From Sphingobium sp. AP49 (lineage in GTDB: Bacteria; Pseudomonadota; Alphaproteobacteria; Sphingomonadales; Sphingomonadaceae), in assembly GCF_000281715.2 (NCBI RefSeq), contig NZ_CP124576.1, positions 1,433,501-1,497,500 of the forward strand: a stretch of DNA of 64,000 nucleotides. Reading direction: 5' to 3'. Both the position numbers and the translations under genes were made by a program. Positions 10,904-37,714 of this stretch are shown here, piece by piece (position 1 is the stretch's first letter; each line of letters starts with the position of its first letter). The notes below the pieces were generated by a model. The model did not search any database, was not told the DNA's origin, and saw only the letters and a list, made by a program, of their open reading frames with translations.

Positions 10904-11155
10904 CACGGACAAGGGGAATGGTCGGCTTTTCGCACGATTGGAGGAATTTCAGGGATACCTAGGGTTCTTCCCGATGGTCTTTTGTCTGGAAGCCGCGATG
11001 CTGAAGGGGTCTTTTCGGGGTTGGATTGTCGCGACATATCCGAACGATATCCACAATCGGCCGAAGAAAAGGCGTTGGACTACTGGTTTTGACGACCCTC
11101 TCCGCAGGCAGCTGTTGGTTGCACGAGGGGGCATTGTGGAAAGGTGGCCGCGATT
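10904..11155 (+). other. Leader region of the two-partner secretion locus
   Basis: About 250 bases without a credible gene between the DUF4239 gene and tpsA. It must hold the tpsA promoter, but I find no convincing -35/-10 pair. Two CATATCC/GATATCC half-repeats at about 11034-11055 are the only motif that stands out. GGAAAGG at 11138-11144 serves as ribosome-binding site for the ATG at 11156. Confidence 0.4.
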
Positions 11156-20100: not shown

Positions 20101-23100
20101 CGGCAATGCCGTGGCGACGCTCACCTCGGCCAACTATGCGCTGACCGGCTTCGTCACGGGCGAAGGCGCGAGCGTGACCGAGACGGTGGGCGCCTATGAC
20201 AGCGCCAATGCCGGCGGCCGCACCGTGACGGCGCAGCTGGGGGCCAGCGACTTCACCGCCAACAGCGGCACCACGCTCGGCAACTACATCCTGCCGACCA
20301 GCGCCTCGGGCGCAGGTACGATCAGCCAGGCGACCTTGCTGGCATCGATCATCGGCAATCCGACCAAGGTCTATGACGGCAACACCGTAGCAACGCTCAC
20401 CAGCGCCAACTATGCGCTGACGGGCTTCGTGACGGGTGAAGGCGCGAGCGTGACCGAGACGGTGGGCGCCTATGACAGCGCCAACGCCGGCGGCCGCACC
20501 GTGACGGCGCAGCTGGGCGCCAGCGACTTCACCGCAAACAGCGGCACCACGCTCGGCAACTACATCCTGCCGACGAGCGCCTCGGGCGCGGGGACGATCA
20601 GCCAGGCGACCTTGCTGGCATCGATCATCGGCAATCCGACCAAGACCTATGACGGCAACACCGTGGCGACGCTGACGTCGGCCAATTATGCGCTGACGGG
20701 CTTCATCAGTGGTGAAGGTGCGAGCGTGACCGAGACGGTCGGCGCCTATGACAGCGCCAATGCCGGCGGCCGCACCGTAACCGCGCAGCTGGGCGCCGGC
20801 GACTTCAGCGCCAACACGGGCACGCTGCTGGCGAACTATGTGCTGCCGACGAGCGCATCGGGCGCGGGGACGATCAGCCAGGCGAGCTTGCTGGCGTCGA
20901 TCATCGGCAATCCGACCAAGGTGTATGACGGCAACGCCATCGCTACCCTGACGTCCGCCAACTATGCGCTGACCGGCTTCGTCACGGGTGAAGGCGCGAG
21001 CGTGACCGAGACGGTGGGCACCTATGACAGCGCCAACGCCGGCGGCCGCACCGTGACGGTGCAGCTGGGGGCGAACGACTTCACCGCCAACAGCGGCACG
21101 CTGCTGGCGAACTATGTGCTGCCGACCAGCGCGTCGGGTGCAGGGACGATCAGCCAGGCGACGCTGCTGGCATCGATCATCGGCAATCCGACCAAGACCT
21201 ATGACGGCAATGCCGTAGCAACGCTCACCAGCGCCAACTATGCGCTGACCGGCTTCATCACGGGTGAAGGCGCGAGCGTGACCGAGACGGTGGGTGCCTA
21301 TGACAGCGCCAATGCCGGTGGCCGCACCGTGACCGCGCAGCTGGGGGCCAGCGACTTCACCGCCAACACGGGCACCACGCTCGGCAACTATGTGCTGCCG
21401 ACGAGCGCATCGGGCGCGGGTACGATCAGCCAGGCGACCTTGCTGGCGTCGATCATCGGCAACCCGACCAAGGTGTATGACGGCAACACCGTGGCGACGC
21501 TTACCAGCGCCAACTATGCGCTGACCGGCTTCGTCACGGGCGAAGGCGCGAGCGTGACCGAGACGGTGGGCGCCTATGACAGCGCCAACGCCGGTGGCCG
21601 AACGGTGACCGCGCAGCTGGGGGCCAGCGACTTCACCGCCAGCACGGGCACCACGCTCGGCAACTATGTGCTGCCGACCAGCGCGTCGGGTGCAGGGACG
21701 ATCAGCCAGGCGACCTTGCTGGCATCGATCATCGGCAACCCGACCAAGACCTATGACGGCAATGCCGTAGCAACGCTCACCAGCGCCAACTATGCGCTGA
21801 CCGGCTTCGTCACGGGCGAAGGCGCGAGCGTGACCGAGACGGTGGGCGCCTATGACAGCGCCAACGCCGGCGGCCGAACGGTGACCGCGCAGCTGGGGGC
21901 CAGCGACTTCACCGCCAACACGGGCACCACGCTCGGCAACTATGTGCTGCCGACCAGCGCGTCGGGTGCAGGGACGATCAGCCAGGCGACGCTGCTGGCA
22001 TCGATCATCGGCAATCCGACCAAGACCTATGACGGTAACAGCGTGGCGACGCTCACCAGCGCCAACTACGCGCTGACCGGCTTCGTTATGGGCGAAGGCG
22101 CAAGCGTGACCGAGACGGTGGGTGCCTATGACAGCGCCAATGCCGGTGGCCGCACCGTGACCGCGCAGCTGGGGACCAGCGATTTCACCGCCAACAGCGG
22201 TACGACGCTCAGCAACTATGTGCTGCCGACCAGCGCGTCGGGTGCAGGGACGATCAGCCAGGCGACCTTGCTGGCGTCGATCATCGGCAATCCGACCAAG
22301 ACCTATGACGGTAACAGCGTGGCGACGCTCACCAGCGCCAACTATGCGCTGACCGGCTTCGTCACGGGTGAAGGCGCGAGCGTGACCGAGACGGTGGGCG
22401 CCTATGACAGCGCCAACGCCGGTGGCCGCACCGTGACTGCGCAGCTGGGCGCCAGCGACTTCACCGCCAACAGCGGCACGCTGCTCGGCAACTATGTGCT
22501 GCCGACGAGCGCGTCGGGTGCGGGTACGATCAGCCAGGCGACACTGCTGGCGTCGATCATCGGCAACCCGACCAAGACCTATGACGGCAACACCGTGGCC
22601 ACCCTGACGTCCGCCAACTATGCGCTGACCGGCTTCATCAGTGGCGAAGGCGCGAGCGTGACCGAGACGGTGGGCGCCTATGACAGCGCCAACGCCGGCG
22701 GCCGCACCGTGACCGCGCAGCTGGGGGCGAACGATTTCAGCGCCAACAGCGGCACGCTGCTGGCGAACTATGTGCTGCCGACGAGCGCCTCGGGCGCGGG
22801 TACGATCAGCCAGGCGACGCTGCTGGCATCGATCATCGGCAATCCGACCAAGGTCTATGACGGCAATGCCGTGGCGACGCTGACGTCGGCCAATTATGCG
22901 CTGACGGGCTTCATCAGTGGTGAAGGTGCGAGCGTGACCGAGACGGTGGGCACCTATGACAGCGCCAACGCCGGCGGCCGAACGGTGACCGCGCAGCTGG
23001 GGGCCAGCGACTTCAGCGCCAACAGCGGCACCACGCTCGGCAACTACATCCTGCCGACCAGCGCATCGGGCGCAGGTACGATCAGCCAGGCGACCTTGCT

Positions 23101-26100
23101 GGCATCGATCATCGGCAACCCGACCAAGGTGTATGACGGCAACGCCATCGCTACCCTGACGTCCGCCAACTATGCGCTGACCGGCTTCGTCACGGGTGAA
23201 GGCGCGAGCGTGACCGAGACGGTGGGCACCTATGACAGCGCCAATGCCGGCGGTCGCACGGTCACGGCGCAGCTGGGGACGAACGACTTCACCGCAAACA
23301 GCGGCACGCTGCTGGCGAACTATGTGCTGCCGACCAGCGCGTCGGGTGCAGGGACGATCAGCCAGGCGACGCTGCTGGCCTCGATCATCGGCAATCCGAC
23401 CAAGACCTATGACGGCAACACCGTGGCCACCCTGACGTCGGCCAACTACAGCCTGACGGGCTTCGTCACGGGTGAAGGCGCGAGCGTGACCGAGACGGTC
23501 GGTGCCTATGACAGCGCCAACGCCGGCGGCCGCACCGTGACGGTGCAGCTGGGGGCGAACGACTTCACCGCCAACAGCGGCACGCTGCTGGCGAACTATG
23601 TGCTGCCGACCAGCGCGTCGGGTGCGGGGACGATCAGCCAGGCGACCTTGCTGGCATCGATCATCGGCAATCCGACCAAGACCTATGACGGCAACACCGT
23701 GGCGACGCTGACGTCGGCCAATTATGCGCTGACGGGCTTCATCAGTGGTGAAGGTGCGAGCGTGACCGAGACGGTCGGCGCCTATGACAGCGCCAATGCC
23801 GGCGGCCGCACCGTAACCGCGCAGCTGGGCGCCGGCGACTTCAGCGCCAACACGGGCACGCTGCTGGCGAACTACATCCTGCCGACCAGCGCGTCGGGTG
23901 CAGGTACGATCAGCCAGGCGACCTTGCTGGCATCGATCATCGGCAATCCGACCAAGGTCTATGACGGTAACAGCGTAGCAACGCTCACCAGCGCCAACTA
24001 TGCGCTGACGGGCTTCGTGACGGGTGAAGGCGCGAGCGTGACCGAGACGGTGGGCGCCTATGACAGCGCCAATGCCGGCGGCCGCACGGTCACGGCGCAG
24101 CTGGGTAGCGCTGACTTCACCGCCAACACGGGCACGCTGCTGGCGAACTATGTGCTGCCGACGAGCGCGTCGGGCGCGGGTACGATCAGCCAGGCGACCT
24201 TGCTGGCGTCGATCATCGGCAATCCGAACAAGACCTATGACGGCAACACCGTGGCGACGCTCACCAGCGCTAACTATGCGCTGACCGGCTTCGTTATGGG
24301 CGAAGGCGCAAGCGTGACCGAGACGGTGGGCACCTATGACAGCGCCAACGCCGGTGGCCGCACCGTGACGGCGCAGCTGGGCGCCAGCGACTTCACCGCC
24401 AACACGGGCACGACGCTCGGCAACTATGTGCTGCCGACCAGCGCGTCGGGCGCGGGTACGATCAGCCAGGCGACGCTGCTGGCATCGATCATCGGCAATC
24501 CGACCAAGGTCTATGACGGCAATGCCGTAGCGACGCTGACGTCGGCCAATTATGCGCTGACGGGCTTCATCAGTGGTGAAGGTGCGAGCGTGACCGAGAC
24601 GGTGGGCACCTATGACAGCGCCAATGCCGGCGGTCGCACGGTCACGGCGCAGCTGGGGACGAACGACTTCACCGCCAACAGCGGTACGACGCTCAGCAAC
24701 TATGTGCTGCCGACGAGCGCATCGGGTGCAGGGACGATCAGCCAGGCGACCTTGCTGGCATCGATCATCGGCAATCCGACCAAGGTCTATGACGGCAACA
24801 GCGTGGCGACGCTTACCAGCGCCAACTATGCGCTGACCGGCTTTGTGGGTACCGAAGGCGCGAGCGTGACCGAGACGGTGGGCGCCTATGACAGCGCCAA
24901 TGCCGGCGGCCGCACTGTGACCGCGCAGCTGGGGGCCAGCGACTTCACCGCCAACAGCGGCACCACGCTCGGCAACTACATCCTGCCGACCAGCGCATCG
25001 GGCGCAGGGACGATCAGCCAGGCGACGCTGCTGGCATCGATCATCGGCAACCCGACCAAGACCTATGACGGCAACACCGTGGCCGCCCTGACGTCCGCCA
25101 ACTATGCGCTGACCGGCTTCGTCACGGGCGAAGGCGCGAGCGTGACCGAGACGGTGGGCACCTATGACAGCGCCAATGCCGGCGGTCGCACGGTCACGGC
25201 GCAGCTGGGGACGAACGACTTCACCGCAAACAGCGGCACGCTGCTGGCGAACTATGTGCTGCCGACGAGCGCGTCGGGTGCAGGGACGATCAGCCAGGCG
25301 ACGCTGCTGGCCTCGATCATCGGCAACCCGACCAAGACCTATGACGGCAACACCGTGGCCACCCTGACGTCGGCCAACTACAGCCTGACGGGCTTCGTCA
25401 CGGGTGAAGGCGCGAGCGTGACCGAGACGGTCGGTGCCTATGACAGCGCCAACGCCGGCGGCCGCACCGTGACGGTGCAGCTGGGGGCGAACGACTTCAC
25501 CGCCAACAGCGGCACCACGCTCGGCAACTACATCCTGCCGACGAGCGCGTCGGGTGCAGGGACGATCAGCCAGGCGACGCTGCTGGCATCGATCATCGGC
25601 AATCCGACCAAGACCTATGACGGCAATGCCGTAGCAACGCTCACCAGCGCCAACTATGCGCTGACCGGCTTCGTCACGGGCGAAGGCGCGAGCGTGACCG
25701 AGACGGTGGGCACCTATGACAGCGCCAATGCCGGCGGTCGCACGGTCACGGCGCAGCTGGGGACGAACGACTTCACCGCAAACAGCGGCACGCTGCTGGC
25801 GAACTATGTGCTGCCGACGAGCGCGTCGGGTGCAGGGACGATCAGCCAGGCGACGCTGCTGGCCTCGATCATCGGCAACCCGACCAAGACCTATGACGGC
25901 AACACCGTGGCCACCCTGACGTCGGCCAACTACAGCCTGACGGGCTTCGTCACGGGTGAAGGCGCGAGCGTGACCGAGACGGTCGGTGCCTATGACAGCG
26001 CCAATGCCGGCGGCCGCACTGTGACCGCGCAGCTGGGGGCCAACGACTTCACCGCCAACAGCGGCACGCTGCTGGCGAACTATGTGCTGCCGACGAGCGC

Positions 26101-28954
26101 GTCGGGTGCAGGGACGATCAGCCAGGCGACGCTGCTGGCGTCGATCATCGGCAATCCGACCAAGACCTATGACGGCAATGCCGTAGCAACGCTCACCAGC
26201 GCCAACTATGCGCTGACCGGCTTCGTCACGGGCGAAGGCGCGAGCGTGACCGAGACGGTGGGCGCCTATGACAGCGCCAACGCCGGCGGCCGCACCGTGA
26301 CGGCGCAGCTGGGGGCCAGCGACTTCACCGCCAACACGGGCACGCTGCTGGCGAACTATGTGCTGCCGACCAGCGCATCGGGCGCGGGTACGATCAGCCA
26401 GGCGACGCTGCTGGCATCGATCATCGGCAACCCGACCAAGACCTATGACGGCAACAGCGTAGCAACGCTCACCAGCGCCAACTATGCGCTGACGGGTTTC
26501 GTGACCGGCGAAGGCGCGAGCGTGACCGAGACGGTGGGCGCCTATGACAGCGCCAATGCCGGCGGCCGCACCGTGACCGCGCAGCTGGGCGCCGGCGACT
26601 TCACCGCCAACAGCGGCACCACGCTCAGCAACTATGTGCTGCCGACCAGCGCATCGGGCGCGGGTACGATCAGCCAGGCGACGCTGCTGGCATCGATCAT
26701 CGGCAACCCGACCAAGACCTATGACGGCAACAGCGTAGCAACGCTCACCAGCGCCAACTATGCGCTGACGGGTTTCGTGACCGGCGAAGGCGCGAGCGTG
26801 ACCGAGACGGTGGGCGCCTATGACAGCGCCAATGCCGGCGGCCGCACCGTGACCGCGCAGCTGGGCGCCGGCGACTTCACCGCCAACAGCGGCACCACGC
26901 TCAGCAACTATGTGCTGCCGACCAGCGCATCGGGCGCGGGTACGATCAGCCAGGCGACGCTGCTGGCATCGATCATCGGCAACCCGACCAAGACCTATGA
27001 CGGCAACAGCGTAGCAACGCTCACCAGCGCCAACTATGCGCTGACCGGCTTCGTCACGGGTGAAGGTGCGAGCGTGACCGAGACGGTGGGCGCCTATGAC
27101 AGCGCCAATGCCGGCGGCCGCACCGTGACCGCGCAGCTGGGCGCCGGCGACTTCACCGCCAACAGCGGCACCACGCTCAGCAACTATGTGCTGCCGACGA
27201 GCGCATCGGGCGCGGGTACGATCAGCCAGGCGACCTTGCTGGCGTCGATCATCGGCAATCCGACCAAGGTGTATGACGGCAATGCCGTAGCAACGCTCAC
27301 CAGCGCCAACTATGCGCTGACCGGCTTCGTCACGGGTGAAGGCGCGAGCGTGACCGAGACGGTGGGCGCCTATGACAGCGCCAACGCCGGCGGCCGCACG
27401 GTCACGGCGCAGCTGGGGGCCAGCGACTTCACCGCCAACAGCGGCACGACGCTCGGCAACTATGTGCTGCCGACCAGCGCATCGGGCGCGGGTACGATCA
27501 GCCAGGCGACGCTGCTGGCCTCGATCATCGGCAACCCGACCAAGACCTATGACGGCAACAGCGTAGCAACGCTCACCAGCGCCAACTATGCGCTGACCGG
27601 CTTCGTCACGGGCGAAGGCGCGAGCGTGACCGAGACGGTGGGTGCCTATGACAGCGCCAATGCCGGCGGCCGCACGGTCACGGCGCAGCTGGGCGCCAGC
27701 GACTTCACCGCCAACAGCGGTACGCTGCTCGGCAACTATGTGCTGCCGACGAGCGCTGTGGGTGTGGGTACGATCCTGGCGCGGCCGATCAGCGCGCGCG
27801 TAGGTGTCGAGATTGTCGGCAATCCGACGAAAACCTATGATGGCACAACGCTAGCGACACTGAGGCCGGAAAATTATGCGTTGGAGGGCTTTATTGGCAC
27901 GGATGGCGCAACGGTCACCCAGGCGGTGGGTAGCTATGCCGACAATAATGCGGGCGTCCATCTGATTACGGCGCTGTTGTCCCTGTCCGATTTCCTTCCC
28001 GATGCCGGCACTGACCTAGCCAATTATATAATGCCCGAGCGTGCGATCGGTCCCGGTACGATCAATCCCGCCCCTCTTGCAGCGATGCTGATTGGCAACC
28101 CGACCAAGACCTATGACGGCAATGCCGTAGCAACGCTCACCAGCGCCAACTATGCGCTGACCGGCTTCGTCACGGGTGAAGGCGCGAGCGTGACCGAGAC
28201 GGTGGGCGCCTATGACAGCGCCAATGCCGGCGGCCGCACCGTGACGGCGCAGCTGGGCGCCAGCGACTTCACCGCTAATACGGGCACGCTGCTCACTAAC
28301 TACATCCTGCCGACCAGCGCATCGGGTGCGGGGACGATTGATCGGGCCGCTCTGGCAGCGGCGATCACGGGCTATCCGACGAAAAGCTTTGACGGCAATA
28401 GCATCGCCACGCTCACTTCGTCGGATTATACGCTGACGGGCTTCGTCGCGGGCGAAGGGGCCACTGTCACACAGACGCAGGCTAGCTATGCAGCGCCGAC
28501 GGTCGGCGTGCATCAGGTTCGCGCCACGCTCGATGCCGGCGACTATAGTGCCAACAATGGGACATTGCTCAGCAACTATAATCTGCCGGCAATTGCGACC
28601 GGGCCGGGCGAGATCACGCCCCCCACGCCAGAACCGCCCACGCCCTGTGTCGTTCCGACCTCGATCAATTGCACTATCCACGGCTTTGCCGCGCTGCTCG
28701 GCGTACGGCGTTTCTATGTGCCCTATCCTTCGCCCTATTCCATCTATTTTGGTTATACCAATGCCATGGCCGGCCTGCCCAGCGTCCTGCGGCAGAGCAG
28801 CGTGACGCCGATCCCCGGCGGCTTGCTGATCCGCACCGGCATGCCGATTATCAACACCCCCGAACAGGTCCTGCTGCAGGGCGCGACCGGAAAGGAATAT
28901 CGCCTCATGTTCCCGCCGCAGCAGCCCTTGATCTGGCCCGAGGCACAACCGTGA
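11156..28954 (+). CDS. Giant TpsA-type adhesin with FHA N-domain and about 57 YDG repeats
   Basis: 5,932 residues. After a long signal sequence (hydrophobic core PLAAGMFATLLAFATPSAFA, cleavage near residue 55) comes the filamentous-hemagglutinin TPS domain, about 57-300. It begins LPTGGVFVNGSGQIS and carries MNPNGVIVGPGG at 141-152, which the TpsB partner recognises. A beta-helical segment follows to about 590. The rest is YDG/MBG-type beta-sandwich units: 26 diverged copies, 28 near-identical 92-residue copies (residues 2969-5544) and three more. A proline-rich hinge (PPTPEPPTP) leads to a tail of about 105 residues with Cys5831 and Cys5839, the only cysteines I noticed. It should be exported by TpsB and act as a surface adhesin or matrix fibre. 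GTG at 11144 is an alternative start. Confidence 0.93.
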   Translation: MQRRTSMRSRLLLGSVLAHMPVADAVPGKAGHVARPLAAGMFATLLAFATPSAFAQSAPPALPTGGVFVNGSGQISQSSPAGLSITQTSNRGVIDWRDFSIGTEHQVSIQNGNGATLNRVTGGALSRIEGMLSATGSVYLMNPNGVIVGPGGKVATGGDFVATTRTIDADSFMAGGALAIRGTSDGTISNAGSIVSQGGSVVMIARAVTNTGSISAAAGRVDLAAADQVLLATTDGKADGLYVAVGGGRGDISQGGVIQAAAVALQAAHGNVFALAGNRDGLIQATGTATIDGQLWLTAPQGKVEVAGTLKAGNADGTGGKILVNGADVALTSTAYVSASGRSGGEVVIGAESYATGKGLANSTRIADGAQISAGGVEGGGRIETSGKAFSVGAAKIDAGKGGQWLIDPDDLVIDAAAATTIVGSLNGGTDVLQQTTAGGTGGNGDITVAADLVWTGTGDLTLNAYRDIAVNNQITGGGTVTMTAGRDIGINAAVTATGVTGTATGVTTISAGGISATAGDITLTTASFVNQAGASGLSASGRWLVYSGDPANDATGGLTPDFYQYNAPGGTAPADGGNGLLYSIAPTVSFTLGAVTKDYDGTTDAVLDDSNVTVTGLINGDDFTLDGSYADKNAGTGINVTATNFEANQGGIAVYGYNVTTPSVTAAVGTINRKALTAAIIGTPTKTYNATTAVALSSANFALTGVASGESIIINSAATAAYDSANAGNRTVDATFQTSSFTLGSGALLSNYILPTSATGAGLINQASILVNGITANDKVYDGSTGALLNTSSASIYGIIGSDDVTLDLSGATGNFATKNVGTAIAVTGAGFSLTGADAANYAISQPSDLAANITAANLLVTGLTANDKVYDGTNFASVNTNGLIVSGLIFGDDVTPVADSGAQITFAQKNVGADIGVTISGISLSGADAGNYNLDFASTLTADITPRPITITNNGMPTKVYDGTTSAFVSQADVGLSNIVAGESITINQASGLNYASKNVGTWDINVSLNPSDYQAGANTLLSNYSLPTLGTIQGEITPAPLNIIIVGNPTKTYDGNANASLGPSNFEVDGFVTGEGASINQTSGQYAASDAGVWQVSATLDASNFDTDPGTLMSNYIIPSPVTGFGTIVRRNLGPGVVTVDITGNPTKYYDGTNVATLTSSDYTLGGFIAGEGATITETVGQYSDVNAGQWAVTVQLDSSDFDPDQGTNLDNYTLPTSATGIGTILRAPLTAAIIGNPTRVYNGTTRIALQPGNFAISGVVSGESITVSPGNIGTFDLRDAGSRVASASFTGNADFVAGAGTLLTNYVLPVDASGPGTITQAPLNILNVGAQNKVYDQTTLATLTGTATLFGLVSGDDVTLSSAGSTGTFATPNVGNGIVVTVAGYSISGADTANYQLFQPTGITANITRRGLTIDNLTALDKLYDGTTDATLGGTATLVGVLSGDDVALDGGSSTAHFLQKNVGTDLRVQVGGYDLAGAQAGNYALTQPTGLTADINARPLSGAIIGNPTKTYDGTTQVSLGSGNYTLTGFIAGEGGSITQSAGAAYDSANAGARIVTASLVTSDFVVQSGTLLSNYLLPTSISGAGTINQATLTASIVNNPTKVYDSTTFAALTSGDYSISGFVGGEGATITQTVGAYDNKSVGYHTVIATLGSGDFTADTGTTLANYVLPVEATGFGTITPATLQVVGILALDKVYDGNTVAQLDSSGGGLTGIYAGDTVNLVSTGASGQFATKNVGTNIAVTASGYDISGGDSANYVVLQPVGLMADIFVKDISLASVTKVYDALTPVPTVDAAYTLSGVVGGDDVGVNASGIVGNYADKNVGTNKNVDIISGVALKGADATNYNIAADFQGAIGIITPATLTVIGAVALNKIYDQTTAAEIDNSNTSLQGILQTDLVTLNPSALASPIVAGAFANANAGTNKAVTTNAYTIGGDDAGNYTLVQPQGLTATIFQKEITLDSVTKIYNGTTALPTASSGYVFSGVISGDTVTANASAATGQYNDGKDVGNDMSVTVNGLTLGGTSGANYYINDVTADIGFITPRALTVAITGNPTKIYDGTDAATLTDTDYTLTGFVTGEGATITQTSGTYASIHQGSWNVSTTLGLGDYDADIGTLLTNYSLPGTASGNGTITPRTLTINGVVADNKVYDGSVVATLDNSGATLATIVAGDSVSLNYSAATATFDNRNVGTGKTVTATGYTLDNNPFGDYVLDQPVLLSADITSALLVLTRVSRIYDATVNLPTDASAYTLSGIVGTDAVTVDAAAAAASGNYADKNVDNDILVTIGNLQLTGADAGNYAIASSIQDQRIGVITPKALAATIIGNPTKIYDGTRTATLGSGNYQLNGFVGGEGAVITQTAGLYDIKDAGGRTITAALTGGDFAANVGTLLTNYVLPDEAVGAGVINRKLLSVALVGYPTKIYDGTTTATLTDANFDLTGFVAGEDAAVTQSIGSYDSKNAGVRTVTAALIASDFSPIGGTLLGNYVLPVSATGAGQIDQAMLTASIIGTPTKTYDGTRAIALTSGNYQLNGFVTGEGATVTEANGLFVSPNAGMRVVNAALDPGDFAADSGTLLANYVLPTLASGNGRINQKALSAIIIGNPTKTYDGGDTATLASGNYELTGFVGIEGASVTQSAGRYDSANAGARTVTASLAVGDFAADAGTTLSNYVLPTEASGAGTINRKALAAAIIGTPTKVYDGNSVATLTSANYSLTGFVGTEGASVTETVGAYDSANAGGRTVTAQLDSADFTANTGTLLANYVLPTGAVGAGLINRAVLTASIVGIPTKTYDATTTATLDSGNFQLVGFVTGEGAIVTQDSGNYASADAGFRLITASLMVGDFVPTGATLLSNYVLPTSATGMGLIERATLSASIIGNPTKTYDGTTLATLTSGNYALTGFVGGQGATIIETVGTYSSANAGGRTVTAQLGSADFSANSGTTLGNYVLPTSASGAGTISQATLLASIIGNPTKVYDGNAVATLTSANYALTGFVTGEGASVTETVGAYDSANAGGRTVTAQLGASDFTANSGTTLGNYILPTSASGAGTISQATLLASIIGNPTKVYDGNTVATLTSANYALTGFVTGEGASVTETVGAYDSANAGGRTVTAQLGASDFTANSGTTLGNYILPTSASGAGTISQATLLASIIGNPTKTYDGNTVATLTSANYALTGFISGEGASVTETVGAYDSANAGGRTVTAQLGAGDFSANTGTLLANYVLPTSASGAGTISQASLLASIIGNPTKVYDGNAIATLTSANYALTGFVTGEGASVTETVGTYDSANAGGRTVTVQLGANDFTANSGTLLANYVLPTSASGAGTISQATLLASIIGNPTKTYDGNAVATLTSANYALTGFITGEGASVTETVGAYDSANAGGRTVTAQLGASDFTANTGTTLGNYVLPTSASGAGTISQATLLASIIGNPTKVYDGNTVATLTSANYALTGFVTGEGASVTETVGAYDSANAGGRTVTAQLGASDFTASTGTTLGNYVLPTSASGAGTISQATLLASIIGNPTKTYDGNAVATLTSANYALTGFVTGEGASVTETVGAYDSANAGGRTVTAQLGASDFTANTGTTLGNYVLPTSASGAGTISQATLLASIIGNPTKTYDGNSVATLTSANYALTGFVMGEGASVTETVGAYDSANAGGRTVTAQLGTSDFTANSGTTLSNYVLPTSASGAGTISQATLLASIIGNPTKTYDGNSVATLTSANYALTGFVTGEGASVTETVGAYDSANAGGRTVTAQLGASDFTANSGTLLGNYVLPTSASGAGTISQATLLASIIGNPTKTYDGNTVATLTSANYALTGFISGEGASVTETVGAYDSANAGGRTVTAQLGANDFSANSGTLLANYVLPTSASGAGTISQATLLASIIGNPTKVYDGNAVATLTSANYALTGFISGEGASVTETVGTYDSANAGGRTVTAQLGASDFSANSGTTLGNYILPTSASGAGTISQATLLASIIGNPTKVYDGNAIATLTSANYALTGFVTGEGASVTETVGTYDSANAGGRTVTAQLGTNDFTANSGTLLANYVLPTSASGAGTISQATLLASIIGNPTKTYDGNTVATLTSANYSLTGFVTGEGASVTETVGAYDSANAGGRTVTVQLGANDFTANSGTLLANYVLPTSASGAGTISQATLLASIIGNPTKTYDGNTVATLTSANYALTGFISGEGASVTETVGAYDSANAGGRTVTAQLGAGDFSANTGTLLANYILPTSASGAGTISQATLLASIIGNPTKVYDGNSVATLTSANYALTGFVTGEGASVTETVGAYDSANAGGRTVTAQLGSADFTANTGTLLANYVLPTSASGAGTISQATLLASIIGNPNKTYDGNTVATLTSANYALTGFVMGEGASVTETVGTYDSANAGGRTVTAQLGASDFTANTGTTLGNYVLPTSASGAGTISQATLLASIIGNPTKVYDGNAVATLTSANYALTGFISGEGASVTETVGTYDSANAGGRTVTAQLGTNDFTANSGTTLSNYVLPTSASGAGTISQATLLASIIGNPTKVYDGNSVATLTSANYALTGFVGTEGASVTETVGAYDSANAGGRTVTAQLGASDFTANSGTTLGNYILPTSASGAGTISQATLLASIIGNPTKTYDGNTVAALTSANYALTGFVTGEGASVTETVGTYDSANAGGRTVTAQLGTNDFTANSGTLLANYVLPTSASGAGTISQATLLASIIGNPTKTYDGNTVATLTSANYSLTGFVTGEGASVTETVGAYDSANAGGRTVTVQLGANDFTANSGTTLGNYILPTSASGAGTISQATLLASIIGNPTKTYDGNAVATLTSANYALTGFVTGEGASVTETVGTYDSANAGGRTVTAQLGTNDFTANSGTLLANYVLPTSASGAGTISQATLLASIIGNPTKTYDGNTVATLTSANYSLTGFVTGEGASVTETVGAYDSANAGGRTVTAQLGANDFTANSGTLLANYVLPTSASGAGTISQATLLASIIGNPTKTYDGNAVATLTSANYALTGFVTGEGASVTETVGAYDSANAGGRTVTAQLGASDFTANTGTLLANYVLPTSASGAGTISQATLLASIIGNPTKTYDGNSVATLTSANYALTGFVTGEGASVTETVGAYDSANAGGRTVTAQLGAGDFTANSGTTLSNYVLPTSASGAGTISQATLLASIIGNPTKTYDGNSVATLTSANYALTGFVTGEGASVTETVGAYDSANAGGRTVTAQLGAGDFTANSGTTLSNYVLPTSASGAGTISQATLLASIIGNPTKTYDGNSVATLTSANYALTGFVTGEGASVTETVGAYDSANAGGRTVTAQLGAGDFTANSGTTLSNYVLPTSASGAGTISQATLLASIIGNPTKVYDGNAVATLTSANYALTGFVTGEGASVTETVGAYDSANAGGRTVTAQLGASDFTANSGTTLGNYVLPTSASGAGTISQATLLASIIGNPTKTYDGNSVATLTSANYALTGFVTGEGASVTETVGAYDSANAGGRTVTAQLGASDFTANSGTLLGNYVLPTSAVGVGTILARPISARVGVEIVGNPTKTYDGTTLATLRPENYALEGFIGTDGATVTQAVGSYADNNAGVHLITALLSLSDFLPDAGTDLANYIMPERAIGPGTINPAPLAAMLIGNPTKTYDGNAVATLTSANYALTGFVTGEGASVTETVGAYDSANAGGRTVTAQLGASDFTANTGTLLTNYILPTSASGAGTIDRAALAAAITGYPTKSFDGNSIATLTSSDYTLTGFVAGEGATVTQTQASYAAPTVGVHQVRATLDAGDYSANNGTLLSNYNLPAIATGPGEITPPTPEPPTPCVVPTSINCTIHGFAALLGVRRFYVPYPSPYSIYFGYTNAMAGLPSVLRQSSVTPIPGGLLIRTGMPIINTPEQVLLQGATGKEYRLMFPPQQPLIWPEAQP
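12928..20059 (+). repeat. 26 diverged YDG units of tpsA
   Basis: Tandem in-frame units of two kinds. One kind of about 75-90 residues has NDKVYDG or VTKVYD and a later KNVGT...GADAGNY block. The other of about 92 residues has IIGNPTKTYDG, a GFVAGEGA block and LLSNYVLPTSA. The two kinds are mixed without strict alternation. DNA identity between neighbours is low, so this part is old compared with the array that follows. The unit at about 19245-19515 already has the sequence of the later array. Confidence 0.85.
20060..27787 (+). repeat. 28-copy near-identical 276-bp tandem array within tpsA
   Basis: 28 units of exactly 276 bp (92 codons) fill 7,728 bp without any length variant; the sum matches the coordinates exactly. 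Each unit begins LLASIIGNPTK and ends GAGTISQAT. Differences are confined to about a dozen residues: T/V before YDGN, then A/T/S at the next site, FVTGEG versus FISGEG, GAYD versus GTYD, TAQL versus TVQL, the GAS/GAN/GAG/GTN/GSA site, and TTLG/LLAN/TTLS before NY. These variants occur in shuffled combinations, as expected from recombination between copies. Being a multiple of three, gain or loss of units keeps the frame. Confidence 0.95.
27788..28617 (+). repeat. Last three YDG units of tpsA
   Basis: A diverged unit (NPTKTYDGTTLATLRPENY), then one whose core from about 28095 to 28270 has the sequence of the main array, then a second diverged unit (YPTKSFDGNSIATL) before the proline-rich hinge. 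The middle unit is therefore an isolated array-type copy between two old ones. Confidence 0.85.
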
Positions 28955-32897: not shown

Positions 32898-33236
32898 TCA
32901 GCTCCGCCCGACGAACAGGAAGCCGACCGCCGCCATGATGCAGGCAAAGGCGGCCGCGTGGCGCCAATGGAGCGGCTCGCCCAACACCGTCACCATGAAG
33001 ATGCCGAAGATCACGAGGGCGATGGCTTCCTGCGCGATCTTGAGTTGTCCGGCGGACCAGCCATGGGCAAAGCCGATGCGGTTGGCGGGCACCGCCAGGC
33101 AATATTCGACGAAGGCGATCGCCCAGCTGATCAGGATGACCAGCATCAGCGGTTTGTTCATGCCGCCCTTGAGGTGCCAGTACCAGGCGGTGGTCATGAA
33201 CAGGTTGGAGAGGATGAGGAGAATGATGGTGGGCAT
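32898..33236 (-). CDS. DUF486 (DMT-superfamily) small membrane protein
   Basis: 112 residues with four hydrophobic helices. The pattern [12 protein letters not shown], then [17 protein letters not shown] and a C-terminal GVGF-like FLFVGRS, is typical of DUF486, a small drug/metabolite-transporter relative without known substrate. It sits on the strand opposite to the catabolic genes, with its stop one base from the liuA stop and its start 39 bases from liuB. It therefore splits liuA from liuB, and liuB must have its own promoter within or just upstream of this gene. Confidence 0.8.
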
Positions 33237-33275
33237 ATCTGCTCTGTGGCACGCGGACGCCGGGAAGGCGAGGGC

Positions 33276-34877
33276 ATGAGCGCACCGGTTCTGGACAGCA
33301 AGCTGTCACCCGATGGCGAAGGCTTTCGCGCCAATGCCGCGCATAATCGCGCGCTGGCGGAGGAATTGCGCGCCAAGGTTGCCGACGCGGCCTTGGGCGG
33401 ATCGCCGGCGGCGCGGGACAAGCACACCGGACGCGGCAAGCTGCTCCCCCGCGACCGCGTCGAGCGGTTGCTCGATCCCGGCTCGCCCTTCCTGGAGATC
33501 GGCCAGCTCGCCGCCACTGGCCAATATGGCGACGAGGTGCCCGGCGCCGGCATGATTGCCGGCATCGGCCGGGTGTCGGGGCGCCAGGTGATGATCGCCT
33601 GCAATGACGCCACGGTGAAGGGCGGCACTTACTATCCCGTCACGGTGAAGAAGCATCTGCGCGCGCAGGAAATCGCGCTCGAAAACCGGCTGCCGTGCGT
33701 CTATCTGGTCGACAGTGGCGGCGCCAACCTGTCCAACCAGGCGGAGGTTTTCCCCGATCGCGACCATTTCGGCCGCATCTTCTACAATCAGGCGAACCTG
33801 TCGGCGCGCGGCATTCCGCAGATCGCCTGCGTCATGGGCAGTTGCACCGCCGGCGGCGCCTATGTTCCGGCGATGTCGGACGAGACGGTGATCGTCCGCA
33901 ACCAGGGCACCATCTTTCTCGCCGGCCCGCCGCTGGTGCAGGCGGCGACCGGTGAGGTCATCAGCTCGGAGGATCTGGGCGGCGGCGACCTGCATGGCCG
34001 CAAGTCGGGCGTGGTCGATCATGTCGCGGACAGTGACGAGCATGCGCTGTCGATCGTGCGCGACATCGTCTCGACCCTGCAGCCCGACCGCCAGAGCGAC
34101 CTCAACCTGCGCGACCCGCGCCCGCCGAAGTGCGATCCGGCCGATCTCTATGGCATCATCCCCCAGGATGTGCGCGCGCCCTATGATGTGCGCGAAGTGA
34201 TTGCGCGGATCGTCGACGGCAGCGAATTTCACGAGTTCAAGCCGCTCTACGGCACCACGCTGGTCTGCGGCTTTGCCCATATCTGGGGCATGCCGGTGGC
34301 GATCCTGGCGAACAACGGCGTGCTGTTCAGCGAAAGCGCGCAGAAGGGCGCCCATTTCATCGAGCTGGCCTGCCAGCGGCGCATTCCCCTGCTGTTCCTC
34401 CAGAATATCTCCGGCTTCATGGTCGGCGGCAAATATGAGGCGGAGGGGATCGCCAAGCATGGCGCCAAGCTGGTGACGGCGGTGGCCACGGCACAGGTGC
34501 CCAAGGTGACCGTGCTGATCGGCGGCAGCTTCGGCGCGGGCAATTACGGCATGTGTGGCCGCGCCTATCAGCCGCGCTTCCTCTTCACCTGGCCCAATAG
34601 CCGGATCAGCGTGATGGGTGGCGAGCAGGCGGCGAGCGTGCTGGCGACCGTCCACCGCGACGCCGCCAAATGGACGCCGGAACAGGCCGAAGCCTTCAAG
34701 GCGCCGGTGCGCCAGAAATATGAGGATGAAGGCAATCCCTATTTCGCAACCTCGCGCCTGTGGGACGACGGCGTGATCGACCCGGCCCAGACCCGCGACG
34801 TGCTCGGGTTGGCCTTCGCCGCCGCGCTCAATGCGCCAGTCGACGATCGCGCGCAGTTCGGCGTGTTCCGGATGTGA
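33276..34877 (+). CDS. liuB: 3-Methylcrotonyl-CoA carboxylase, beta (carboxyltransferase) subunit
   Basis: 533 residues, the usual length. It transfers the carboxyl group from biotin to 3-methylcrotonyl-CoA, giving 3-methylglutaconyl-CoA. Features are [30 protein letters not shown] near the N-terminus (each half family-typical), [19 protein letters not shown] as the acyl-CoA oxyanion hole of the N-terminal crotonase half, and [12 protein letters not shown] and [11 protein letters not shown] in the C-terminal half. The start at 33276 has GGAAGGCGAGGG upstream. It needs the LiuD subunit, encoded after the REP/GIY-YIG insertion. Confidence 0.93.
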
Positions 34878-34954
34878 TCGGGGTGGCGGAAAGGATGCTC
34901 CCTTCATTCCTCGCCGAGTTCGCCTCGGGGAGGGGGACCGCCTCTCGCTCCCTC

Positions 34955-34983
34955 CGTCATGCTGAACTTGTTTCAGCATCCAT
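34955..34983. repeat. REP-like palindrome, left copy
   Basis: A 29-base unit whose core, ATGCTGAA-CTTGT-TTCAGCAT, is a perfect 8-bp stem with a 5-nt loop. It is an exact inverted copy of 35314-35342. It lies 77 bases after the liuB stop, and its right half encodes the last two residues and the TGA stop of the GIY-YIG gene on the opposite strand. Confidence 0.85.
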
Positions 34984-35290
34984 CGGGGGGCAAGGCTGGA
35001 AGCCCGATGGCGGGCGCAAGGTCCGCCCAACACGGATTGTCGCTCTCGATCAGGTTGATCTTCCATTGCCGGTGCCAGCGCTTGAGTTGCTTCTCGCGCA
35101 GGATGGCGGCCTCCATGCTGCCGAACATCTCGAACCGGACGAGGCGATGGACAGCATGGCGGCTAGTGAAACCGGCAATGCTATCGGTGCGATGCTGGTA
35201 AAGTCTGCCGACAAGGTCGGACGTTACGCCGATGTAGAGCGTGCCATAGGGCTTGCTGCTCAAAATATAGACGCAAGGCTGTCTTTCCAT
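34973..35290 (-). CDS. GIY-YIG nuclease-domain protein flanked by inverted REP repeats
   Basis: 105 residues, the minimal single-domain size (COG2827-like). The GIY position reads VYIL (7-10), the YIG position LYIG (18-21), and the catalytic Arg is Arg29 in DLVGRLYQHR. The metal-binding Glu is Glu66 in AAILREKQLKRW, and Asn79 and the NPCWADL end are also family-typical, so the active site looks intact. The domain should nick or cut DNA. The start at 35290 gives a compact domain; an in-frame ATG at 35338, inside the right REP copy, would add 16 residues encoded by the repeat. The stop codon is inside the left REP copy. It lies antisense between the two carboxylase genes. Confidence 0.85.
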   Translation of the reverse strand: MERQPCVYILSSKPYGTLYIGVTSDLVGRLYQHRTDSIAGFTSRHAVHRLVRFEMFGSMEAAILREKQLKRWHRQWKINLIESDNPCWADLAPAIGLPALPPDGC

Positions 35291-35313
35291 CGCAATGCCC
35301 AGCCTGCGGCGAA

Positions 35314-35342
35314 ATGGATGCTGAAACAAGTTCAGCATGACG
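35314..35342. repeat. REP-like palindrome, right copy
   Basis: An exact inverted copy of the unit at 34955-34983, with the same 8-bp stem and 5-nt loop. It lies 24 bases before the GIY-YIG start and 16 bases before the liuD GTG. Its CATG gives in-frame ATG codons in both directions: 35337 for liuD and 35338 for the nuclease. Confidence 0.85.
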
Positions 35343-35357
35343 AATTGGGAGACTGTG

Positions 35358-37199
35358 GTGCTTGAATCCCTCCTCATCGCCAATCGTGGCGAAATTGCCT
35401 GTCGGGTGATCCGCACCGCGCGACGGCTGGGTATCCGCACGATCGCGGTCTATTCCGATGCCGATGCCGACGCGCTGCATGTGCGCGAGGCGGACGAGGC
35501 GGTGCATATCGGCCCGTCGCCGGTACGCGAATCCTATCTGGTCGGCGACCGCATTATCGCGACAGCGAAAGCGACAGGGGCACAGGCGATTCACCCCGGC
35601 TATGGCTTCCTGTCGGAAAATGCCGAGTTCGCGCAGGCGGTGATCGACGCGGGCCTGATCTGGGTCGGTCCCAACCCGTCCTCCATCACTGCCATGGGCC
35701 TGAAGGACGCGGCCAAGAAACTGATGCAGGATGCCGGCGTCCCCACCACGCCCGGCTATCTGGGCGAAGACCAGTCGCCCGAGCGGCTGGCGGCGGAGGC
35801 CGAGGCGATCGGCTATCCTGTCCTTATCAAGGCGGTCGCCGGCGGCGGCGGCAAGGGCATGCGCAAGGTCGATGCCGCCGCTGACTTCGCTGACGCCTTA
35901 TTGTCCTGCCGGCGCGAGGCGGCGTCCAGCTTCGGCAACGACCAGGTGCTGCTGGAAAAATGGATCACCAACCCGCGCCATGTCGAGGTGCAGGTGTTCG
36001 GCGACCGCCACGGTAATGTCGTCCACCTGTTCGAGCGCGACTGTTCGCTCCAGCGTCGCCACCAGAAGGTGATCGAGGAAGCGCCCGCGCCGGGCATGGA
36101 TGAAGCGACCCGCGCGGCCGTGTGCCAGGCGGCGGTCAATGCGGCCAAGGCGGTCGACTATGTCGGCGCCGGCACGATCGAGTTCATTGCCGATGGCTCG
36201 GATGGGCTGCGTGCCGACCGCATCTGGTTCATGGAGATGAACACCCGGCTTCAGGTCGAACATCCCGTGACCGAGGAGATTACCGGCCAGGATCTGGTCG
36301 AATGGCAGTTGCGGGTCGCGTCGGGCGAACCGCTGCCCCGGACGCAGGATCAACTGTCGATCAATGGCTGGGCGATGGAAGCGCGCCTCTATGCCGAGGA
36401 TCCGGTCAAGGGCTTCCTGCCCTCGATCGGCACGCTCGACACGTTCGAACTGGGCAGCGGCGCGCGCATCGACACCGGCGTCGAGGAAGGGGCGGCCATT
36501 TCGCCCTATTATGATCCAATGATCGCCAAGGTCATCGCCCATGGCGACACGCGCGACGCGGCGCGGCTGCGGCTGGCGGCGGCGCTTGATGATACGGTGA
36601 TCTGGCCGCTGCGCACCAATGCGGGCTTTCTGGTCAAGGCGCTGGAGAATGCGGATTTCGCGGCGGCCCGGCTCGACACCGGCCTGATCGCGCGTGAGGG
36701 CGATGCGCTGTTGCCGCCGGCCGATCCGTCCGACGCGGCACTGGCCGATGCGGCCGGGGCGCTGACGCCGGGCGGGGCGCTGGCGGGCTTCCGCCTCAAT
36801 GCGCCGGTCCGGGCGGAGGCGAATTTCCTGCTGAACGGCCATCCCCATGCCGTGCGCTATGATCCGCGTCTGGGCGACGCCCGGCCGCTGGAAGATGTGC
36901 TGATTGCCGAGGGCGGGCAGGTCTGGGAAATGACGCCCTGGCGTGTTGCCGGTGGCGCTGGCGGTGCCGCATCCGACGGCGCGATCCTGTCGCCCATGCC
37001 CGGCCGCATCATTGCCGTGGCGGTGACGGCGGGGCAGGCGGTGATCAAGGGGCAGAAGCTGCTGACGCTGGAGGCGATGAAGATGGAGCATAGCCTGGTT
37101 GCGCCGTTCGACGGCGTGGTCGCAGACCTGAACGCGGCCGAGGGCGGGCAGGTGAGCGAGGGCGTGCTGCTGGCCCGGATAGATCAGGCCGAGGGCTGA
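35358..37199 (+). CDS. liuD: 3-Methylcrotonyl-CoA carboxylase, alpha (biotin carboxylase/carrier) subunit
   Basis: 613 residues. The biotin carboxylase domain (about 1-445) opens LLIANRGEIACRVIRTARRLG and has the ATP-grasp loop AVAGGGGKGMRKV, the RDCSLQRRHQKVIEEAPAP-type block (here ERDCSLQRRHQK) and the MNTRLQVEHPVTE motif. The C-terminal biotin carrier domain has EAMKMEHS with the biotinyl lysine at Lys575. It carboxylates its own biotin with bicarbonate and ATP for LiuB. I prefer the GTG at 35358, six bases after GGGAG. A GTG at 35355 and an ATG at 35337, which lies inside the REP repeat, are alternatives. Confidence 0.93.
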   Translation: MLESLLIANRGEIACRVIRTARRLGIRTIAVYSDADADALHVREADEAVHIGPSPVRESYLVGDRIIATAKATGAQAIHPGYGFLSENAEFAQAVIDAGLIWVGPNPSSITAMGLKDAAKKLMQDAGVPTTPGYLGEDQSPERLAAEAEAIGYPVLIKAVAGGGGKGMRKVDAAADFADALLSCRREAASSFGNDQVLLEKWITNPRHVEVQVFGDRHGNVVHLFERDCSLQRRHQKVIEEAPAPGMDEATRAAVCQAAVNAAKAVDYVGAGTIEFIADGSDGLRADRIWFMEMNTRLQVEHPVTEEITGQDLVEWQLRVASGEPLPRTQDQLSINGWAMEARLYAEDPVKGFLPSIGTLDTFELGSGARIDTGVEEGAAISPYYDPMIAKVIAHGDTRDAARLRLAAALDDTVIWPLRTNAGFLVKALENADFAAARLDTGLIAREGDALLPPADPSDAALADAAGALTPGGALAGFRLNAPVRAEANFLLNGHPHAVRYDPRLGDARPLEDVLIAEGGQVWEMTPWRVAGGAGGAASDGAILSPMPGRIIAVAVTAGQAVIKGQKLLTLEAMKMEHSLVAPFDGVVADLNAAEGGQVSEGVLLARIDQAEG

Positions 37200-37226
37200 G
37201 CCGATCCGGCTTCATGGAATGATAAT

Positions 37227-37240
37227 TGCACTATTGTGCA
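37227..37240. promoter_or_regulatory. Inverted repeat TGCAC-TATT-GTGCA upstream of the MaoC gene
   Basis: A perfect 5-bp inverted repeat in an unusually AT-rich 60-base gap between liuD and the hydratase gene, ending 21 bases before the start codon. It is a plausible operator for an internal promoter. The bound protein is unknown. Confidence 0.4.
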
Positions 37241-37261
37241 TATTTATATAAAGGGCGACAT

Positions 37262-37714
37262 ATGGCGGGCAGGCATTTTGACGAATGGCAGGTGGGCGAC
37301 CGGATCGCGCATGAACTGCGCCGCACGGTGACCGAGACCGACAATCTGCTGTTCACGACGATGACCCATAATCCCCAGCCGCTGCATCTGGATGCCGAGG
37401 CGGCCAAGGCGTCGGAATTCGGCCAGATCCTGGTCAACGGCACTTTCAGCTTCGCGCTGATGATCGGCCTGTCGGTGGGAGATACCACCATGGGCACGCT
37501 GGTCGCGAACCTGGGCTATGACAAGCTCGTCATGCCCAAGCCGGTGTTCATCGGCGATACGCTGCGCTGCGAGACCGAGGTCACAGACCTCAAGGAAAGC
37601 CGCTCGCGTCCCGAGGCCGGCATCGTCACCTTCACCCATCGCCTGCTCAACCAGCGGGACGAGATTGTCTGCCAGTGCCTGCGCATGGCGTTGCTCAAGA
37701 AGAGGTCTGCATGA
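37262..37714 (+). CDS. MaoC-type hydratase of the leucine cluster
   Basis: 150 residues, a single hot-dog fold. The hydratase-2 signature appears as THNPQPLHLDAEAAKASEFG, with the Asn-Pro and His of the active site, followed by ILVNGTFSFALMIGL. In Mycobacterium tuberculosis the similar gene Rv2499c lies in the same gene set (acyl-CoA dehydrogenase, MCC subunits, CitE-like lyase). By analogy this enzyme would hydrate 3-methylglutaconyl-CoA with (R) stereochemistry, or mesaconyl/itaconyl-type CoA esters. The stop overlaps the next start (ATGA), so the hydratase and lyase are translationally coupled. The specific substrate is inference. Confidence 0.8.
   Translation: MAGRHFDEWQVGDRIAHELRRTVTETDNLLFTTMTHNPQPLHLDAEAAKASEFGQILVNGTFSFALMIGLSVGDTTMGTLVANLGYDKLVMPKPVFIGDTLRCETEVTDLKESRSRPEAGIVTFTHRLLNQRDEIVCQCLRMALLKKRSA

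Follow-up and report, generated by a model that had tools for sequence, protein, structure and literature searches.

A GIY-YIG nuclease gene bracketed by inverted CGTC-tagged REP hairpins in Sphingobium sp. AP49, a candidate nuclease-plus-target unit

We analyzed a 64,000-nucleotide stretch of the Sphingobium sp. AP49 genome (contig NZ_CP124576.1, positions 1,433,501–1,497,500; hereafter, the window), in which a small nuclease gene lies between two host genes of a carboxylase. The upstream gene encodes an acyl-CoA carboxylase carboxyltransferase subunit (33276–34877, + strand; PF01039) and the downstream gene a biotin carboxylase subunit (35361–37199, + strand; PF02786 and PF00364). Between them, on the opposite strand, is a GIY-YIG nuclease gene of 105 codons plus stop (34973–35290, − strand), bracketed by two copies of a 29-nt palindrome, CGTCATGCTGAACTTGTTTCAGCATCCAT, at 34955–34983 (+) and, inverted, at 35314–35342 (−), which are identical at 29 of 29 positions. 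The left copy consists of a CGTC tag, an 8-bp stem (ATGCTGAA), a 5-nt loop (CTTGT) and a CCAT tail; both strands of the unit fold into a hairpin with a 4-nt tail, the 8-bp stem, the 5-nt loop and another 4-nt tail, with CGTC at one end, and the tags of the two copies point outward. Of the 19 inverted repeats reported in the window, none is longer than this repetitive extragenic palindrome (REP) pair, whose 21-nt core occurs twice against 0.00 expected per 64 kb in 100 shuffles. Immediately inside the left REP, a 27-nt extension (34984–35010) is weakly complementary to the corresponding stretch at the right end (35287–35313), the complementarity amounting to 77% across the whole 56 nt. Elsewhere in the window, a 5,936-aa open frame at 11144–28954, which probably encodes a giant repetitive protein, contains a 276-bp (92-aa) repeat in some 40 copies, mostly in tandem and many of them 85–95% identical to one another.

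The two REP copies overlap the ends of the nuclease reading frame. The frame runs from 35290 to 34976 and its TGA stop codon (34975–34973) falls in the left copy, and an in-frame ATG at 35338–35336 falls in the right copy and would open the same frame to a possible longer form of 121 aa (34973–35338, − strand), a length shared by three homologues (P0005, P0006 and P0010). Pfam assigns the protein a GIY-YIG domain alone (PF01541, E = 2 × 10−14), with no second domain, and the conserved catalytic-site residues are intact: Tyr8, Gly21, Arg29, His33, Glu66 and Asn85 are conserved in 98–100% of 176 aligned sequences, with Arg29 and Glu66 each present in 175. The best named homologues are from Sphingobium yanoikuyae (95% identity) and S. 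scionense (93%). The exact bracket, the stop codon and alternative start inside the repeats, and the apparently intact Arg29 and Glu66 had all been described in an earlier sequence-only reading of this locus, and the present analysis agrees with each of them.

We compared 30 orthologous sites, the best-scoring from 94 genomes of the genus, and found several states at the same position. Six sites, including that of the window, carry the GIY-YIG unit, nine carry a DUF559 gene, four fall into other states, and at eleven the host genes abut, the biotin carboxylase gene lying −1 or 8 bp after the carboxyltransferase gene. One site (L125) retains both REP ends with the nuclease gene gone, and at another (L108) parts of the gene start and of the right end survive as remnants. 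At two further sites (L113 and L118) there is an ORF whose N-terminal part looks GIY-YIG-like by eye; these are 118-aa ORFs inserted at the orthologous site (1146–1499 in L113) without visible REPs, and the L113 ORF has no Pfam match. In the window itself, a stretch at 34909–34939 (+ strand), just outside the left REP, looks by eye like a remnant of the outer palindrome found around DUF559 genes when these occupy the site in relatives.

In three genomes (G023, G002 and G024) the unit is 79–83% identical to that of the window and the flanks 82–84%; the corresponding values are 96% and 94–96% for G036, and 75% and 80–82% for G090. The unit is thus about as diverged as its flanks in the first three genomes, as expected of inheritance rather than recent movement, and in our reading the insertion is old, has passed down mostly by vertical inheritance and is also lost in places. 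The dN/dS of the nuclease is 0.05–0.24 over 15 pairs, for some of which synonymous distances are near saturation, and the protein is under purifying selection. The sequence-only reading had suggested comparing orthologous loci for clean insertion; the comparison recovered the unit in present, decayed and absent states, but no clean insertion with a target duplication and no near-identical empty site were found among the eleven empty sites, whose flanks are just 78–89% identical to those of the window. At that level of identity a target duplication is unreadable, and among the closest relatives the site is occupied by the unit in L104, by a remnant in L108 and by a DUF559 unit in L109 and L110. 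No REP dimer was seen at the eleven empty sites, at the same 78–89% flank identity.

Bracketing by inverted repeats extends well beyond this locus. A gene was scored as bracketed when an inverted repeat with a score of at least 16 surrounded it, a later scoring being slightly looser. With the first scoring, 51 of 79 testable loci were bracketed among the best 80 of 555 confirmed loci in GTDB species genomes, a set ranked by similarity and not drawn at random, compared to 12 of 13,515 length-matched random intervals and 2 of 423 other ORFs (80 aa or longer) at the same loci, where none of the 95 short ORFs was bracketed. Under the looser scoring, 52 of the 73 distinct genes that could be tested were bracketed, and the control ORFs again gave 2 of 423; both counts come from the best 80 of 555 loci, which were the sole source of control ORFs. 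When loci from 149 genomes of the family were added, 130 of 176 genes were bracketed. The added loci were top matches, with 40 places picked by hand from the ranked list, mostly in order and with their flanks unseen; 7 of 186 matches were removed as duplicates and 1 of the remaining 179 was untestable, and in the set of 176 a broken gene (L230) was counted once and a 38-aa piece (L155) was left out. The other 46 of the 176 relatives are unbracketed by this measure; one of them is a paralog in the Sphingobium sp. AP49 genome (L005), which scored 10 here because the query ran past its right copy and which a separate scoring shows to be bracketed, at 17. The test proposed in the sequence-only reading, whether genes of this kind are bracketed more often than chance, was thus strongly positive, and the pairing of nuclease and repeat is real and general among the sampled relatives.

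The brackets share a common design. A [CT]GTC[AG] tag is present in both copies of 116 of the 130 bracketing pairs and in at least one copy of 119. Orientation counts and the tree described below used a set of 178 rows, with L230 entered twice and L155 included, of which 131 were bracketed. In these 131 the tags point outward in 107 and inward in 11, and the tag pattern is absent in 13; in outward-tag rows the repeats lie at median distances of 27 bp from the start and 12 bp from the end of the aligned protein. Bracketed relatives span Planctomycetota, Myxococcota, Thermodesulfobacteriota, Cyanobacteriota and beta- and gammaproteobacteria, and the single Chloroflexota locus (L094) is unbracketed. 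A separate set of eight plasmid-collection loci was evenly split, with four bracketed and four not. In the plasmid collection, a bracketed relative on Azospirillum lipoferum plasmid AZO_p3 (L286) lies between sufB and sufC, adjacent genes of one pathway, and an unbracketed relative on Planktothrix agardhii plasmid p1 (L287) has as its neighbours the gene of an MmeI-type restriction enzyme on one side and the DISARM gene drmA on the other. Three records of that collection (NZ_CP119140.1, NZ_CP119142.1 and NZ_AP026896.1) are 2.2–4.9 Mb long and chromosome-like in length.

The Sphingobium sp. AP49 genome (4.51 Mb, a single contig) contains five places that match the window protein, and all five genes are flanked by inverted palindromes, which belong to four types; the pairs are CGTC-tagged at four of the five. 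The first type is that of the window locus (core CTGAACTTGTTTCAG); the second (CCAGCGAAGGCTGG) is shared by two genes, L002 and L004, the stems of L004 differing between its two sides; the third (ATTGCGAGC...GCAAT) occurs at L003; and the fourth, at L005, is a 17-nt palindrome (TCCGTTCGGTTCGAGCC) without a CGTC tag. The window repeat is not abundant in this genome, where a 22-nt form occurs six times in 4.5 Mb and the 15-nt core has 8 exact copies, or 11 with at most one mismatch. The core reaches up to 105 copies in other genomes of the family. We searched this genome for a Y1 (RAYT-type) transposase and obtained no PF01797 match; 5 of 14 control genomes do have matches. A RAYT of its own, acting in trans, is therefore unlikely to have moved these repeats.

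The REP is also found as head-to-head pairs away from the gene-bearing unit. Among 33 pairs less than 150 bp apart, picked by eye from a partial listing together with two of this genome, the start-to-start spacing is 50–64 bp in 27 and exactly 62 bp in 14; close tail-to-tail pairs, of which G210 has at least three, were left out of this count. With one mismatch allowed, this genome has four such dimers, all with 62-bp spacing, two of which sit in a larger inverted duplication with common flanks. Spacer sequences vary from dimer to dimer and the ends are the same as those of the gene-bearing unit, in which the gene takes the place of the spacer. In another genome (G162; L264–L266), some REP dimers share additional flanks on both sides, as if they were within a larger repeat, as judged by eye.

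The type of repeat goes with the lineage of the protein. Repeat classes were drawn up by core after the sequences had been viewed (A 68, B 21, C 14, D 14, E 8 and other 6; n = 131), and on a maximum-likelihood tree of 122 proteins, built on few columns and omitting 9 of the 131 rows that had an internal stop or were shorter than 80 aa, repeat class changed 19 times, compared to a mean of 57.7 when shuffled (0 of 200 shuffles were as low). Because flanking repeats are inherited together with the gene, the tree alone speaks for co-inheritance and is no proof of recognition. As a test independent of linkage, we counted core copies across the 149 family genomes, 105 of which match the protein, defining the window type as a best E-value up to 1 × 10−39; the cut-offs for protein types were chosen after the lists had been viewed. 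All 29 window-type genomes contain the core, and 24 of them have more than two copies, compared to 26 of the 120 others (P = 1.4 × 10−9). In the mismatched control, a non-cognate core exceeded two copies in 10 of the 29 versus 13 of 120 (P = 0.0035). Among the 43 genomes with a second protein type, 13 had more than two copies of the nearer core, versus 10 of the 106 others (P = 0.0024), and the non-cognate window core was equally enriched (23 of 43 versus 27 of 106, P = 0.0012). A joint logistic fit gave the window type a larger coefficient for its cognate core (2.12, P = 1 × 10−5) than for the non-cognate core (1.11, P = 0.006), and the second type a cognate coefficient (1.13, P = 0.003) hardly above the non-cognate one (0.98, P = 0.03). 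More than two core copies also occur in 4 of the 44 genomes without any protein match. Taken as statistical association, these counts support repeat specificity for the window-type protein.

The window repeats have the architecture of a REP class that was described earlier. In the survey by Di Nocera et al. (2013, PMC3733652), CGTC REPs are predominantly alphaproteobacterial and consist of a CGTC (or TGTC or CCTC) tag, an AT-led stem of 8–9 bp, a loop of 4–5 nt and a CCA tail, forming head-to-head dimers with spacers of mostly 20–100 bp; the window repeats share the tag, an AT-led stem of 8 bp, a 5-nt loop, the CCA tail and the head-to-head dimers. The survey describes elements with many copies, to be compared with the 8 exact cores in this genome and up to 105 in others, and equates Neisseria CGTC-1 with dRS3. 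In its words these elements "seem lacking a dedicated transposase"; according to the survey, CGTC units flank neither RAYT genes nor those of other IS200 transposases, and CGTC REPtrons may have disappeared. A class for which the survey gives no dedicated enzyme is paired here with a GIY-YIG gene. The term GIY does not occur in the searched main text of PMC3733652, nor in the searched texts of RepRanger 2025 (PMC12306157) and PMC10319059, and no link between GIY-YIG proteins and REPs was found among the titles and abstract openings listed in the literature searches.

A closer precedent comes from Neisseria. Aligned without gaps over 85 aa, the window protein and a GIY-YIG protein from N. gonorrhoeae share 61% identity, and the gonococcal gene lies among nine dRS3-type matches (at most 3 mismatches) within 1.86 kb. 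Chenal et al. (Nature Communications, 2025) reportedly found that Ssn, a GIY-YIG protein of Neisseria, cuts single-stranded DNA site-specifically at a repeat, NTS, of which there are hundreds of copies; Ssn reportedly modulates natural transformation and founds a family with thousands of homologues. We presume the gonococcal protein to be Ssn and NTS to be dRS3. Like Ssn, the window protein has a single GIY-YIG domain, is homologous to the gonococcal protein and is encoded by a gene associated with its own repeat; unlike the Neisseria case, the gene is tightly bracketed by two copies, the repeat has few copies in this genome, and there are five paralogs with four repeat types. The sequence-only reading knew of no described GIY-YIG system of this kind, which is probably wrong given an Ssn family reported to cut single strands site-specifically at a repeat. 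Judged by homology and repeat architecture, the nuclease–repeat partnership is probably of a kind already known, which the window unit most likely extends to Sphingobium.

Two other comparisons place the unit more precisely. It resembles RAYT REPtrons and REPINs in having an enzyme gene between inverted REPs and gene-free REP dimers elsewhere, and differs from RAYT REPtrons, which have an IS200-like Y1 enzyme and a GTAG tag, in that its enzyme is a GIY-YIG and not an HUH/Y1 protein, its tag is CGTC and the search of this genome for a Y1 transposase was negative. The UPF0213 GIY-YIG proteins (PDB 1zg2) show weak sequence similarity to the window protein (E = 6 × 10−4), and we know of no tie between them and repeats.

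We propose that the locus is a nuclease-plus-target unit, in which an Ssn-type GIY-YIG nuclease gene sits between two inverted CGTC-tagged REPs that would serve as the recognition hairpins of its product, and we regard this as the likely reading. By homology to Neisseria Ssn, the nuclease would recognise the REP as a single-stranded hairpin and cut or nick it. Cleavage of REPs while DNA is being replicated or taken up may bias recombination towards retention of REPs and unit alike, with occasional copying to new sites, and the gene-free inverted REP pairs, most often 62 bp apart, would be non-autonomous derivatives of the unit. The unit would then be a functional analogue, for CGTC REPs, of the RAYT "REPtron". 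Against this proposal count the small number of exact core copies in this genome, the 46 unbracketed relatives and the four unbracketed plasmid-collection loci, the enrichment seen with mismatched cores, and the four genomes that have more than two core copies but no protein match. The suggestion in the sequence-only reading that a GIY-YIG nuclease fills the place of a RAYT holds as far as it concerns a REP class for which the 2013 survey knows no RAYT and a genome in which no Y1 enzyme was found; propagation of the repeats by the nuclease is a further step that we only infer.

A stronger version, in which the nuclease is a true REP mobiliser, taking REP dimers and the unit itself to new sites by excision or copying, in a GIY-YIG-based parallel to RAYT transposition, is possible but doubtful. 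Gene-bearing units and gene-free dimers share ends, bracketed genes occur at five places in this genome and also between sufB and sufC in A. lipoferum, the remnant at the orthologous site L125 has both REP ends without the gene, and relatives at 60–63% identity are found in other phyla. Against it, neither a target duplication nor a near-identical empty site was seen, and the similar divergence of unit and flanks in three genomes argues for inheritance rather than a recent move. In the plasmid collection the DNA of the unit has just two matches, both short and partial, which also speaks against its recent transfer by plasmids. Overall, a mobile unit is a possible reading of the locus.

We consider it rather unlikely that the enzyme serves host housekeeping, trimming REP hairpins at replication forks or in incoming DNA with the REPs near the gene in a regulatory role. 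The low dN/dS and the reported effect of Neisseria Ssn on natural transformation would fit such a function, as would the stop codon and alternative start inside the REPs, through which the hairpins could control expression. A housekeeping gene sits poorly with five copies and four repeat types in one genome, with a patchy distribution in the family (matches in 105 of 149 genomes) and with decay and absence at orthologous sites. Less probable still is a homing-type parasite, whose nuclease gene would have invaded existing REP dimers by cutting and repair copying and so come to lie between two REPs. GIY-YIG is a classic homing nuclease domain and the gene occupies the place of the dimer spacer, but the protein has no second Pfam domain able to act as a DNA-binding part, the empty sites of eleven relatives, with flanks 78–89% identical to those of the window, show abutting genes and no dimer, and purifying selection acts on a protein whose gene has a fixed site; Rfam, moreover, gives no match at the site and thus no known intron. 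That small dispensable genes merely sit amid REP-rich intergenic DNA scarcely deserves credence, since other ORFs at the same loci are almost never bracketed (2 of 423, and 0 of 95 short ones), even if REP types do co-occur across genomes in the mismatched controls.

Other kinds of element were considered and rejected. There was no convincing PADLOC match to a defence system (best E = 0.0098), no Rfam match to an intron or known RNA at 33000–37500 up to E = 1, and no match at E = 1 × 10−5 in 50,697 phage records.

The DUF559 genes that occupy the same orthologous site in nine genomes (L109, L110, L114, L119, L120, L123, L128, L130 and L132) have palindromes that differ by eye from those of the GIY-YIG unit. 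DUF559 (PF04480) genes have matches in 56 of 61 genomes of the genus, and at 24 of 30 top-match loci (L232–L261) they are flanked by G-rich palindromes of several types, compared to 0 of 34 neighbouring ORFs. With their palindromes they are possibly another REP–nuclease system. A literature search on this pairing gave no lead, the term DUF559 being absent among the matches listed.

More broadly, GIY-YIG nucleases might be dedicated, RAYT-independent spreaders of CGTC REPs, so that CGTC REPtrons would be widespread with a GIY-YIG in place of the Y1 enzyme and DUF559 genes with their own palindromes would form a further system. We offer this tentatively, at less than even probability; if true, REP classes would have several unrelated partner nucleases. 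Natural nuclease–hairpin pairs of this kind, such as the five genes and four repeat types in a single genome, are numerous and may be useful for studies of specificity. The pairing would also connect the reported work on Ssn, NTS and transformation with the origin and persistence of REPs. The 2013 survey left CGTC REPs enzymeless (PMC3733652), and the reproducible pairing of nuclease and repeat provides a directly testable candidate partner; the sequence comparisons point to such GIY-YIG enzymes as good candidates for the missing partners of CGTC REPs.
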